Notes under the pieces: generated by a model
The model's database searches: none
Seen by the model: only the letters and a program-made list of their open reading frames with translations
Told to the model about the DNA's origin: nothing
NCBI GenBank assembly: GCA_019637875.1
Contig: JAHBUW010000003.1
Location: 186,001 to 250,000 of the forward strand
DNA from: Pseudobdellovibrionaceae bacterium
Lineage (GTDB): Bacteria; Bdellovibrionota; Bdellovibrionia; Bdellovibrionales; Bdellovibrionaceae
Length of the DNA: 64,000 nucleotides
Direction: 5' to 3'
Program-made: the position numbers and the translations under genes
Shown here: positions 9,780 to 20,011 of the stretch, piece after piece
Layout: every line of letters begins with the position of its first letter
How positions within the stretch are numbered: the first letter of the stretch is position 1

Positions 9780-11825
9780 ATGCTGATCGACGTGCGCGGC
9801 CTTTCCTTGAACTACGATTCCGAAGCCGGACCGGTGAAAATCCTGCGCGGGATCGACTTTCAAGTTCAGCGCGGCGAACAGCTCGCGATCTGCGGCCCCT
9901 CCGGCTCTGGAAAGTCCACGCTGCTTTACATCCTCGGCGGTCTGTTGCGGCCTTCAGGCGGCGAGGTCCGTTTGGAAAACCGCGAGCTCTGGCACCTCAC
10001 CGAACCGGAACGCTGCGCGATTCGGGCGCGCAAGATCGGCTTCGTCTTCCAGCAGTTCCATTTGATTCCGGGCTGGACCGTTCTGCAGAACATCATGTTG
10101 CCCGCCGAGTACAACTCGATCCCCAACGCCGAAAGACGCGCCCGCGAACTGGTCGTGAAGCTGGGTCTCGCCGGTCTTGAGGACCGTAAACCCAATCAGC
10201 TTTCCGGAGGCCAAGCGCAGCGGGTCGCCATCGGGCGCGCGCTTTTCATGGATCCCGAGATCCTGCTGGCCGACGAGCCGACGGGCTCGCTCGACTCGAA
10301 AACCTCGGCGGAGATCTTGAAGCTGTTCGAGCAGATTCACGACGAAGGCAAAACCGTCATCCTGATCACGCACGACGAAAAAGTCGCCGCGCAGTCCAAA
10401 CGCGTGATCCGCGTGGAAGATGGGAAGATCGTTTCGGATCAGGCGAATGCGCGCGTCCGCGAAAACGCCGCGCCGGCCCCAACGCTCCCGCCCCCGCAAG
10501 CGCCCGCGCCCGTTTCGCGTTTGGCGTGGGCGACGGACCTCGTGAAAGATCTTTTCCGCAACTACAGCTGGCAGAAGTCGCTCGAGCTGCTACGCCGCAA
10601 TCCCTCGCGGTCGTTCCTGACTTTGTTCGGGATCGCGGTCGGCGTCGCCGCCGTCGTTTCGATGATCACCATCGGCGGCTTCGCGAAAGACAAAATCCTG
10701 CAAAGCTATTCGACGCTCGGGGTGCGTAACTTCCAGCTCTGGGGTTACCGCAACTGGCAGCTGTCGGCCACGGCGCCGAAGACCGCGGACTTCCGCGCGT
10801 TCAGCATCGAACGCGACATCCAGCCCCTCATGCGGCTTTTCCCCGAGATCGTCGCGTACTCGCCGCTCATCCGTTTCTGGAGCGCCGACGTCTCTTACGG
10901 CGGCAAAACGATGTCCGAGGATACGAACCTGATGGGCGTCGGGGCGGACGGTTTGCGATTGAACGACTTCGAGCTCGCGCAGGGTCGGCCGCTCACCGCG
11001 ATCGACGTCGAGGATCGTCTGCCCGTGTGCTGGCTGGGCGCCTCGCTGGTGGACGAGATGCGAATCCCCGTGCTGGACGGACCGATGATTTTCGTGAAAA
11101 CGCAAAACTTCAACTTCCCCTGCCGGGTCGTCGGCTCGCTCAGCCAGAAGTCCACCGTCGGCGGCGGCGGACGGCGGGGTAAGCCGGGTTTCGAGATCAT
11201 CGCGCCCTTCACGTTTCTGCAAGCCGTGCGCGGCGAAAATCTTTACTCCAACGAAGGGGACATGAACCAAGTCCTCTTCGAGGTCGAGGACGGCACCCTT
11301 CCCGACGCCGTCACCGGACGCATCGAAAAACACTTCGAGCAAAAATACGGAAACGCCGGCAGCTTCCGCTCGGACACGAACTCGAAGATCATCGGCCAGA
11401 TGCAGCGGTTTTTGAACATCTTCAACATCCTGCTGACATCGATCGCCTTCATCACGCTACTCGTCGGCGCGACGGGCGTGACCAACATGATTTTGGTTTC
11501 GATTTCCGAACGTATTCGTGAACTGGGCATCCGCCGCGCGGTCGGGGCCGAGCCCAAACATCTGCGTCGCTTGGTTCTGAGCGAAAGCCTTACGCTCTGC
11601 GGGATCGCGGGCCTCCTCGGGATCGTTTTCGCGCTCGTCTTCGAGCACGGCATGCTTTATCTCGCGTCGAAGATTTTCAAACAGGTCCCCTTCGAATTTC
11701 TGTGGGATCCGCTCGCGATGACGATCAGCCTCGTCTCCATCGTCGGGGTCGGCGTCGGCAGTGGTCTGTACCCGGCCCTGCGCGTGGAACGCCAAGACGT
11801 CGTCAAAGCGCTCCGCACCGACTAG
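9780..11825 (+). CDS. MacB-type ABC transporter, fused ATPase-permease
   Basis: The 681-residue protein joins an ABC ATPase to an FtsX/MacB permease. The nucleotide-binding domain has Walker A GPSGSGKST (39-47), the Q-loop FVFQQFHL (about 90), signature LSGGQAQR (about 140), Walker B ILLADEPTG (about 160) and the H-loop ITHD. A proline-rich linker (about 236-250) leads to a first transmembrane helix near 285, a large periplasmic domain, and three C-terminal helices from about 550. This is the MacB mechanotransmission layout: the pump works on periplasmic substrates (peptides, lipoproteins, macrolides) through adaptor and TolC. It begins 3 nt after the adaptor gene. The substrate is unknown. 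Confidence 0.92.
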   Translation: MLIDVRGLSLNYDSEAGPVKILRGIDFQVQRGEQLAICGPSGSGKSTLLYILGGLLRPSGGEVRLENRELWHLTEPERCAIRARKIGFVFQQFHLIPGWTVLQNIMLPAEYNSIPNAERRARELVVKLGLAGLEDRKPNQLSGGQAQRVAIGRALFMDPEILLADEPTGSLDSKTSAEILKLFEQIHDEGKTVILITHDEKVAAQSKRVIRVEDGKIVSDQANARVRENAAPAPTLPPPQAPAPVSRLAWATDLVKDLFRNYSWQKSLELLRRNPSRSFLTLFGIAVGVAAVVSMITIGGFAKDKILQSYSTLGVRNFQLWGYRNWQLSATAPKTADFRAFSIERDIQPLMRLFPEIVAYSPLIRFWSADVSYGGKTMSEDTNLMGVGADGLRLNDFELAQGRPLTAIDVEDRLPVCWLGASLVDEMRIPVLDGPMIFVKTQNFNFPCRVVGSLSQKSTVGGGGRRGKPGFEIIAPFTFLQAVRGENLYSNEGDMNQVLFEVEDGTLPDAVTGRIEKHFEQKYGNAGSFRSDTNSKIIGQMQRFLNIFNILLTSIAFITLLVGATGVTNMILVSISERIRELGIRRAVGAEPKHLRRLVLSESLTLCGIAGLLGIVFALVFEHGMLYLASKIFKQVPFEFLWDPLAMTISLVSIVGVGVGSGLYPALRVERQDVVKALRTD

Positions 11826-17885: not shown

Positions 17886-18737
17886 ATGCAAAGCGAATTT
17901 CAGCCTCTCAAGAAGACCGTCACCATGACTCACCCCTCGGGCACTTTCACCTGGGGGGATCGCAAAAACTTCGTGCTCTTCGCCGGTCCCGACATCATCG
18001 AGGACGAGGGCATGGTCCTCGAAGTCGGTCGCGAACTTCAGCGCGTGACCAAAGCTTTGGGCATTCCCTGGATTCTGAAATGCTCCTTCGATAAAGCGAA
18101 CCGTCAAAGCGCGGGCAGCTTCCGCGGACCGGGCGCCGATGCCGCGCTCAAGTCCCTGCAAAAGATCAAAAGCACTTTGGGCTGCGCACTGTTGACCGAC
18201 GTTCACGAGACCGAGCAGGTCGCGGGTACCGCCGAAGTCGCCGACGTCATCCAGATTCCCGCCTTCCTGTCGCGCCAGACGGATCTGCTGGTCGCCGCCG
18301 CGAAAACCGGCCGCGTCCTGCACATCAAAAAGGGTCAGTTCCTGGCGCCGTGGGACATGGGCGCGATCGCGAAGAAAGCCGTGAACGCCGGCAACGACAA
18401 GCTGCTGCTTTGCGAACGCGGAACCACTTTCGGTTACAACCGTTTGATCAACGATATGACGGGCCTGGTGGAAATGCGCCGCCTGGGTTTCCCGGTCATC
18501 ATGGACTGCACGCACTCGACCCAACTGCCGGGCGCCACGGGGGAAAGCTCGGGCGGTCGCCGCGAGATGGTGTGGCCACTCGCCCGCGCCGCGATGGCCG
18601 TCGGGGTCGACGGAATCTTCCTCGAAACCCATCCCGATCCGGACTCGGCCCTGTGCGACGGGCCCACGTCACTGAAGCTCTCGAATCTCGAGACCTTCCT
18701 GAAAAGCCTGCAAACGATCTTCAACACCCATCAGTAA
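17886..18737 (+). CDS. kdsA: Kdo-8-phosphate synthase
   Basis: KdsA condenses phosphoenolpyruvate with arabinose 5-phosphate to Kdo 8-phosphate, the first committed step to the LPS inner core. The family blocks are present: KCSFDKANRQSAGSFRGPG (66-83), LLTDVHE, QIPAFLSRQTDLL, MDCTHSTQLPG (His210), LETHPDPDSALCDGP (Glu247, Asp258). The residue that separates metal-dependent (Cys, AGPC) from metal-independent (Asn, GGMN) enzymes is Asp36 here (FAGPDIIED), an unusual variant; the other three metal ligands of the dependent class are kept. It is coupled to the aminotransferase gene upstream and ends in a strong terminator. Confidence 0.95.
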   Translation: MQSEFQPLKKTVTMTHPSGTFTWGDRKNFVLFAGPDIIEDEGMVLEVGRELQRVTKALGIPWILKCSFDKANRQSAGSFRGPGADAALKSLQKIKSTLGCALLTDVHETEQVAGTAEVADVIQIPAFLSRQTDLLVAAAKTGRVLHIKKGQFLAPWDMGAIAKKAVNAGNDKLLLCERGTTFGYNRLINDMTGLVEMRRLGFPVIMDCTHSTQLPGATGESSGGRREMVWPLARAAMAVGVDGIFLETHPDPDSALCDGPTSLKLSNLETFLKSLQTIFNTHQ

Positions 18738-18746
18738 GCGGACAAT

Positions 18747-18777
18747 GAAACCCGGGACCTCCCGGGTTTCTTCATTT
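18747..18777 (+). terminator. Intrinsic terminator after kdsA
   Basis: GAAACCCGGG pairs with CCCGGGTTTC (10 bp) around an ACCT loop and is followed by TTCATTT. It separates the aminotransferase-kdsA unit from the structured element and gdpD-like gene downstream. Confidence 0.85.
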
Positions 18778-18802
18778 AGGGTGTTTCCTCATTTTGGCCA
18801 GG
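18777..18802. repeat. Left terminal inverted repeat of the element
   Basis: This 26-nt arm starts TAGGGTGTTTCC and ends GGCCAGG. It pairs with 19022-19047 at 25 of 26 positions, the exception being G18797 against A19027. Confidence 0.85.
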
Positions 18803-18809
18803 CGCAGAA

Positions 18810-18905
18810 CGTCTCCCGCCGTTCGAAGATCAAGGCGTGACGACGAAGGCTTAGCCGTTGCTACGTCGAGGAGGAGCAACGCGGAGATTCGGACGGCGGG
18901 AGACG
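18810..18905 (+). repeat. Inverted-repeat pair B-B' (first large hairpin)
   Basis: The arm at 18810-18827 (CGTCTCCCGCCGTTCGAA) pairs with 18888-18905 over 18 positions: 17 Watson-Crick pairs and one T18823-G18892, a G-U pair in plus-strand RNA. The 60-nt loop contains arms C and D. Confidence 0.8.
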
Positions 18906-18990
18906 CCCCTTCGGGGTCGAGTCCCTTCACGCCCCCTGACTTCGTTGCTCCTCCTTGAATTGGCAAGGCCAGTCCTTCGTCGTCGCGCCT
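18833..18990 (+). repeat. Inverted-repeat pairs C-C' and D-D' (alternative rod)
   Basis: C (18833-18849) pairs with 18974-18990 over 17 positions with one U-G (T18838-G18985). D (18867-18881) pairs with 18943-18957 over 15 positions with one G-U (G18868-T18956). D nests within C, separated by a 17 x 16 nt internal loop. These helices cross both B-B' and E-E'. Confidence 0.8.
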
Positions 18991-19016
18991 CGCAGGTGTC
19001 GTGAAGGGACTCGATT
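18915..19016 (+). repeat. Inverted-repeat pair E-E' (second large hairpin)
   Basis: The arm at 18915-18931 pairs with 19000-19016: 15 Watson-Crick pairs and two G-U pairs at the base of the stem (plus-strand sense). The loop holds arms D' and C', so loop-loop contact with the first hairpin is possible. Confidence 0.8.
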
Positions 19017-19021
19017 CTGCA

Positions 19022-19047
19022 CCTGGACAAAATGAGGAAACACCCTA
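19022..19047. repeat. Right terminal inverted repeat of the element
   Basis: This arm mirrors 18777-18802 at 25 of 26 positions and ends with the TA that would be the second target copy. The ribosome-binding region of the next gene (GGTGGAG) begins immediately after it. Confidence 0.85.
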
Positions 19048-19057
19048 GGGTGGAGCG

Positions 19058-20011
19058 ATGAAAACGATCATTGGTTTTTTCGTTCTTCTTCTGCTCGCGG
19101 GCTGCACGACGGCTCCGAAATCCCACTTCACCCGCATCGCGCATCGGGGTGCCTCGGGCCATGTGCCCGAACACACGTTGGTGGGCGCGGCCATGGCGCA
19201 CACGTTCGGCGTCGACTACATCGAAGCCGACCTCGTCCTGACGAAAGACGACCGGCTGATCGTGATGCACGATCTTGAACTCGACACGACGACGGACGTG
19301 GCGAAAGTCTTCCCCGGGCGAAAGCGCGCCGACGGCCGTTATTACGCCATCGACTTCACGCTGGACGAGATCAAACGCCTGCGCGCGGTCGAACGCTTCG
19401 ACCCTCAAACCGGGAAGCGTATTTTCCCGGATCGTTTCCCCGACGACGCGCGAGGGTTCTCGGTGCCGAGCTTCGACGAGTTCGTGACGCTCGTGAAGTC
19501 CCTGAACCGCACCCGGGGAATGAAGACGGGCATCTACCCCGAAATCAAAAAACCGGAGTTTCACCAGCGCGAGGGCAAAGACATCACGAAAGCGGTGATC
19601 GAAGCGGTCCGCAAGCACGGTTACGAGGAAAAGCCTTCCGAGATTTACATCCAGTGTTTCGAACCGAGCGCGCTGAAGCGCTTGCGAAACGAATTCCAAA
19701 CGAAGATCCCGCTCGTGCAGCTCTTGGGGGAAAACTCGTGGAAAGAATCCTCGGCCGACTACGACGCGATGAAAACCGATGCGGGACTGAAAGCCATCGC
19801 CGAATACGCCCAGGGCTTCGGTCCGAGTCTGGGAACGCTGCGTACGAATCCCACGCTCTTCCCGCGCGCGAAGGCCGCGGGTCTCGTGGTCCATCCGTTC
19901 ACGCACCGTGCGGACCAACGTCCCTTCGGCTTCACGAACGAGGCCTATCTACGCATGATCCGCGAATCGGGTGCGGACGGTGTCTTTTCGGACTTTGCCG
20001 AGATGTTCTGA
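19058..20011 (+). CDS. glpQ: Glycerophosphodiester phosphodiesterase lipoprotein (GlpQ-like)
   Basis: The enzyme hydrolyses glycerophosphodiesters, such as deacylated phospholipids, to glycerol 3-phosphate and an alcohol. A lipobox (LLAGC, Cys16) follows a short signal peptide, so it is lipid-anchored. The GDPD TIM-barrel begins with RIAHRGASGHVPEHT, containing the catalytic His and Arg and the metal-binding Glu. DYIEADLVLTKDDRLIVMHD supplies the second catalytic His. The long insertion and the size (317 aa) fit the periplasmic GlpQ branch. The ATG is only 10 nt from the end of the inverted-repeat element, so its promoter or leader must lie in that element unless transcription reads through the kdsA terminator. 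Confidence 0.92.
   Translation: MKTIIGFFVLLLLAGCTTAPKSHFTRIAHRGASGHVPEHTLVGAAMAHTFGVDYIEADLVLTKDDRLIVMHDLELDTTTDVAKVFPGRKRADGRYYAIDFTLDEIKRLRAVERFDPQTGKRIFPDRFPDDARGFSVPSFDEFVTLVKSLNRTRGMKTGIYPEIKKPEFHQREGKDITKAVIEAVRKHGYEEKPSEIYIQCFEPSALKRLRNEFQTKIPLVQLLGENSWKESSADYDAMKTDAGLKAIAEYAQGFGPSLGTLRTNPTLFPRAKAAGLVVHPFTHRADQRPFGFTNEAYLRMIRESGADGVFSDFAEMF

Follow-up and report, generated by a model that had tools for sequence, protein, structure and literature searches.

A two-core inverted-repeat element in a Pseudobdellovibrionaceae genome and its apparently unrecorded family of palindromic hairpin elements

Introduction

The window analysed here is a stretch of 64 000 nucleotides from a Pseudobdellovibrionaceae bacterium (contig JAHBUW010000003.1), and within it an intergenic stretch of 271 bp carries five interlocking inverted pairs, A–E. 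The initial annotation read these pairs as two mutually exclusive folds and proposed 'a bistable RNA, or a DNA fold-back element'. The locus raises the question of which of these it is, whether it has relatives and which of its strands folds. The reading that we favour, and hold to be rather probable, is that the locus belongs, as a two-core form, to an undescribed family of hairpin elements that are short, palindromic, non-coding and non-autonomous, insert at TA and act at the DNA level. One odd stretch leads in this way to a family that is widespread and apparently unrecorded; covariation reveals its structure, and its orientation follows replication.

Organization of the element

The element is non-coding and intergenic: of its two plus-strand neighbours, the upstream gene ends at 18737 and the downstream gene starts at 19058. 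Its parts are given below; the arms were located by inverted-repeat search.

18777–19047, no strand: whole two-core element, 271 bp, with the TA at both ends included (TTAG...CTAG with one flanking base)
18777–18809, plus: outer arm A, the left terminal inverted repeat, TA-GGGTGTTTCC...
18810–18827, plus: arm B of the plus-strand core hairpin, pairing with 18888–18905
18831–18884, plus: conserved core, CAAGGCG-TGACGACGA-(variable hairpin 18847–18867)-GAGGAGGAG-CAACGCGG, including C and D
18888–18905, plus: arm B′
18906–18916, no strand: mini-hairpin CCCCTTCGGGG between the two halves
18917–18938, minus: arm E of the minus-strand core hairpin, pairing with 18993–19014
18940–18992, minus: second copy of the conserved core, corresponding to D′ and C′ of the initial annotation
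18993–19014, minus: arm E′
19015–19047, minus: outer arm A′, the right terminal inverted repeat

The start codon of the downstream gene lies only 11 bp from the right end of the element (window 19015–19058), so that the element constitutes the immediate upstream region of this gene. At the place of the mini-hairpin, several relatives have similar small hairpins (GCCCTTCGGG, CCCTGCGGG and AACCCTTCGGG).

All five annotated pairs were recovered in place. Pairs A (18777–18809/19015–19047) and B (18810–18827/18888–18905) each match at 94% and pair E (18917–18938/18993–19014) at 91%, while longer pairs containing C (18833–18856/18967–18990) and D (18858–18881/18943–18966) both match at 83%. Both strands fold far below dinucleotide shuffles, by 12.5 standard deviations in energy for the plus strand and 13.8 for the minus strand, and none of 200 shuffles was as good. 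The count of 62 Watson–Crick and five G-U pairs made in the initial annotation was not reproduced over the longer arms, although the pairs themselves stand; the full arms also contain C·T, G·A and A·C mismatches in C, D and E. Nor do all deviations fall on the G-U side in the plus sense. The full E arm has mismatches at 18932/18999 and 18934/18997 that are C·T on the plus strand and G·A on the minus strand, which fits each half folding on its own strand.

A single core of about 50 nt occurs twice, inverted, and C and D correspond to its left and right halves. Each core lies between private arms (B and E, respectively); the outer inverted repeat, A, has TA on its flanks. C and C′, and D and D′, are complementary because the same core sits twice in inverted orientation. 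The idea of two mutually exclusive folds is therefore mostly unsupported: its C/C′ and D/D′ pairing is automatic from the inverted duplication, and the single-core relatives, which are far commoner than two-core elements among what was found, have no alternative fold. A covariance model of the core recovered the plus core (18822–18893, 70.3 bits, E = 8e-21) and the minus core (18931–19001, 64.7 bits, E = 6e-19), with nothing else notable in the window. In the whole-genome search the element matches itself in the reverse sense, and matches in relatives cover element positions 53–105 in one sense and 164–216 in the other. The computed RNA energy is lower for the full-length hairpin (−166) than for the split form (about −153); the corresponding DNA energies are −91 and −90 for the window copy, and −94 and −84 for the second copy described below. 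Energy by itself does not decide between the full-length and the split fold.

Copies and relatives

The second full copy, found by the whole-genome search, is also 271 bp long and is 93% identical (G000:C4:24119–24389). The two copies show 18 differences, and four arm A pairs are changed on both sides (18791/19033, 18792/19032, 18801/19023 and 18804/19020). As the initial annotation expected, homologous copies compensate their arm changes, both in this genome and in the relatives searched. Within the genome, perfect matches to TAGGGTGTTTCCTC are confined to both ends of each full copy and a 33 bp stretch on contig 20. The latter (G000:C20:15284–15316) is a solitary end resembling arm A, has no partner and is probably a remnant. 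The genome has 17 core matches. Two more of its elements have two cores (L223 and L224), with the inner part in common and outer arms that are different yet complementary.

The core consensus is GCAAGGCG-CGA/GGA ×3-variable hairpin-GAG/GAC ×3-CAACGCAG. With its flanks it reads GCAAGGCG-CGACGACGA-(17–22 nt hairpin)-GAGGAGGAGCAAC-GCAGC, the off-pattern flank positions being 93–97% conserved. An exact-pattern scan gave at least 115 core-bearing stretches across genome contigs of many phyla. Among the matches listed, the record titles name Bdellovibrio, Acidobacteria, Gemmatimonadetes, Myxococcales, Eisenbacteria, Krumholzibacteriia and Binatia as well as Elusimicrobia, Omnitrophica, Nitrospirae, Planctomycetota, Patescibacteria and Burkholderiales; the titles include metagenome assemblies as binned, and at least two of the listed matches (L093 and L123) look like chance. 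Judged from these records, the core appears to be present in at least ten bacterial phyla. It was found in 51 of 291 genomes of the same phylum.

The arms are wholly different in sequence among relatives and keep their complementarity. Single-core elements with well-defined ends are 154–163 bp long and two-core elements about 270 bp. In all 21 two-core elements, which come from several phyla, a plus core is followed by a minus core at a spacing of 105–110 bp; the arms of these 21 are mostly unrelated in sequence and about 85–100% complementary, with a few weaker cases. An equivalent of arm B, different in sequence, is present in nearly all two-core relatives and is weak in L068.

Tandem arrays of the core element were observed in the genome containing L058 (G072, C1:3738534–3739288 and 207194–207762) and in G143 (C1:2255629–2255930; L266), the periods being 171 bp (five times), 249 bp (three times) and about 115 bp (three times). 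A separate single-core class of 235–263 bp occurs in Burkholderiales and other Pseudomonadota (L048, L049, L052, L059, L135 and L155). Its ends are different (AACCTAGAAACCNCAGTTGA), some members have an extra small hairpin such as TCACCCAATGGGTGA and the elements are asymmetric about the core.

No core was found in viral contigs and phages or in E. coli genomes. Plasmids gave two weak matches, of which only one (Novosphingobium) covers the core. Rfam gave no match in the window and only two tRNAs in 18 core-bearing loci, and literature searches by core sequence string and by topic gave no match among open-access papers. The family is apparently unrecorded.

Strand-specific folding

The core helix has the form (N-N′, G·A, A·G)×3, i.e. 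three modules in each of which a base pair is followed by G·A and A·G, with the variable hairpin as a cap. In 55 cores outside the pattern selection, the two inner module pairs are Watson–Crick in 52 and 50 cases, respectively, and G-C and C-G occur in nearly the same numbers; the mean over 2000 shuffles was 26 and the maximum 39. The complement of the core strand would carry C·T at the G·A positions.

The arms show the same strand. Read on the core strand, their mismatches are G·T in 156 cases versus A·C in 66 (p = 1e-9) and G·A in 195 versus C·T in 15 (p = 4e-41), these p-values being too small because the elements are related to one another. The bias persists at 15 nt or more from the core (98:53 for G·T versus A·C and 114:15 for G·A versus C·T), and counted per element G·T exceeds A·C in 55, with the reverse in 10. 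Mismatches that are strand-specific in this way, with G·T above A·C and G·A far above C·T, indicate that one strand folds. In computed DNA folding, 28 of 31 elements had a core strand that was stabler than the complementary one (mean difference 3.7 kcal/mol).

Ends, insertion and decay

The ends read xTA-G...C-TAy, where x and y vary independently, consistent with duplication of the two bases TA within YTAR/CTAG. The terminal inverted repeats and target duplication that characterize a MITE were both found, with TA at each end and differing bases outside it. In the single clear occupied/empty pair, in which the adjoining flank shows only moderate similarity, the element of genome G248 lies directly at a CTAG stop codon and G220 has the stop codon without the element (L288 versus L369).

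Comparison of orthologous sites also shows how copies change. L374 (G248:C1, about 608.9–609.2 kb) has kept both arms and lost exactly the core of 45 nt that is present in L295 (G220), with a TTG microhomology at the junction; the exactness of this loss, the microhomology and the retained arms point to hairpin-driven deletion. At other orthologous sites the arms and inner hairpins are changed on both sides in a compensatory manner. One orthologous element has a hairpin-rich insertion of about 60 bp inside its core (L378 in G220, about 11630–11700, compared with L282 in G248).

In the element's own genome no autonomous element with TAGGGTGTTTCCTC ends was found, although one that acted in trans may since have disappeared, and there are 0 matches to the IS630-type DDE_3 domain (PF13358). 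Neither an autonomous element nor a transposase with CTAGTGTCC ends was found in 20 regions of G064, G060 and G066, the long open reading frames of which look host-like by eye, and in the closed genome G064 the end pattern used detected no transposase with matching ends.

Orientation relative to replication

In one sister genus of the same family, 11 closed genomes contain 85 cores whose strand runs against the fork and 14 whose strand runs along it, with the terminus taken as opposite dnaA and with loci common to several of the 11 genomes not being independent. At scores of 40 or more, the numbers are 62 against and six along. Running against the fork makes the core strand the leading-strand template. 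Several exceptions map to 0.46–0.48 of the circle, close to a terminus whose estimated position is uncertain, and one genome (G151) is reversed (3 to 0). Each of the 11 genomes has 2–18 copies.

Two other causes of this polarity were considered and rejected. Gene orientation was ruled out by the context of 60 cores in four genomes, as the rule holds both in leading-leading (30 of 31) and in lagging-lagging (10 of 10) surroundings; in other phyla the orientation relative to genes is mixed. Base-composition skew usually gives a G excess on the leading strand, and the core strand, although purine-rich, lies opposite to it. Polarity was examined in three genome groups, and in the two outside the sister genus the agreement is weaker, with 29:12 in closed Binatia genomes (p = 0.012) and 38:19 in closed Longimicrobiales genomes after tandem arrays had been collapsed (p = 0.016). 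The origin fitting these orientations best is no more than 0.14 Mb (Binatia) and 0.07 Mb (Longimicrobiales) away from dnaA.

Discussion

Of the two natures proposed in the initial annotation, the DNA fold-back element is supported by homologous copies with co-varying arms, by the TA flanks, by the occupied/empty comparison and by the replication-linked polarity; the bistable RNA mostly is not. We infer the following course. The element would insert at TA, preferably in CTAG, and its movement would probably depend on a DDE transposase acting in trans and reading its ends. The core would act as a folded single strand of DNA, not as RNA. On the lagging-strand template such a hairpin would be easily recognised, deleted or excised, so that most surviving copies would be those whose foldable strand serves as the leading-strand template. 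The observed sign of the polarity would follow if copies having the stabler strand on the lagging template were lost. In the two-core form each strand has one foldable core, and hence no orientation would be preferred.

Several other explanations share part of this evidence. If the core strand were transcribed, its (N-N′, G·A, A·G)×3 helix might bind a protein or regulate neighbouring genes, and the arms would co-vary for RNA folding. The G·U and G·A asymmetry is equally expected from a folded core-strand RNA, the covariation is strong and the hairpin is kept at orthologous loci with compensatory changes. We nevertheless consider a structured RNA unlikely, since the orientation tracks the replication fork and not the neighbouring genes, relative to which it is mixed in other phyla; Rfam has no matching family, and the two-core form would need function from both strands. 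In the sister genus, the 85:14 polarity and the retention of copies at orthologous loci would also suit a polar signal that the host maintains on its chromosome, like KOPS or Chi, and that spread by transposition and was kept for segregation or repair. This is very improbable: a double-strand signal needs no hairpin covariation, there are only 2–18 copies per closed sister-genus genome and none in most genomes of the phylum, and both presence and core differ between close relatives.

Strand-polar hairpins with an orientation linked to replication are likewise what a REP/REPIN-like element would show if a tyrosine transposase (Y1/RAYT, IS200/IS605-like) moved it in single-stranded form. In a set of 60 relatives, all genomes with the core also carry a Y1 gene (Fisher p = 0.012), a link that was dropped when core-rich closed genomes proved to have none: no Y1_Tnp match was found in G064, G072 and G143, which have 41, 72 and nine cores, respectively, or in G066. 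Moreover, 40 Y1 loci examined contained no core, and neither a GTAG nor a CGTC tag stands at the palindrome foot, where the arm ends read TA-G...C-TA. Y1/RAYT-type transposases are known to use the strand opposite to the leading template, whereas the core strand lies on it. We accordingly give this origin as little credence as the polar signal. Slightly less credible still is that these are ordinary MITEs with a passenger core, the arms of which stay palindromic solely because template-switch repair acts on them as the DNA replicates. The TA flanks and arms that diverge fast yet remain complementary would agree with this, but a non-palindromic core should then become a perfect palindrome or drift, and instead no other part is as well conserved across phyla, and the G·A modules of the core covary. 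A DNA hairpin element that inserts at TA thus remains the reading that we prefer.

The preferred reading places the family beside three known systems. TA-targeting bacterial MITEs of the IS630/Tc1-mariner type (e.g. RUP; ISY100, PMC2170065) likewise have inverted ends, TA borders and a CTAG preference, are non-coding and, as here, occur in a second genome copy; a preference of IS630 for TA in CTAG is reported in the title of a reference in PMC2170065. MITEs have common ends, however, whereas elements sharing the present core differ in theirs, and the element's own genome lacks an IS630 transposase (PF13358). REP/REPIN sequences and CGTC-tagged REPs (PMC3733652, PMC3116915) are also short, dispersed intergenic palindromes, often in inverted pairs and in many bacteria. 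REPs are short tagged palindromes with stems conserved within a family, while this family keeps its inner core and varies its arms, and has no GTAG tag and no adjacent Y1 gene; the core sequence is absent from the text of the CGTC-tagged REP paper. The usual MITE and REP pattern is thereby inverted, with the inside conserved and the ends variable.

Integron attC sites resemble the family in being a folded single DNA strand with a conserved structure and a stem sequence that is free to vary. In chromosomal integrons the recombinogenic attC strand is likewise on the leading-strand template, which has been explained by less folding there than on the lagging template (PMC5371416). The likeness in strand-selective folding and leading-template placement is one of behaviour only: the family has no attC boxes by eye and no cassette array, is dispersed between genes and has inverted ends. 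It offers a natural test set for the survival of DNA hairpins on leading versus lagging templates, and it predicts a mobilising or recognising protein common to distant phyla. As a wider and more doubtful possibility, all of these elements may form one ancient strand-polar DNA hairpin family, spanning at least ten phyla and recognised as folded single-stranded DNA at the fork by an enzyme that moves or maintains it. Such an enzyme might recognise the core by its sequence and the arms chiefly by their structure and length, and the family would then be a further folded-strand class beside attC and IS200/REP.
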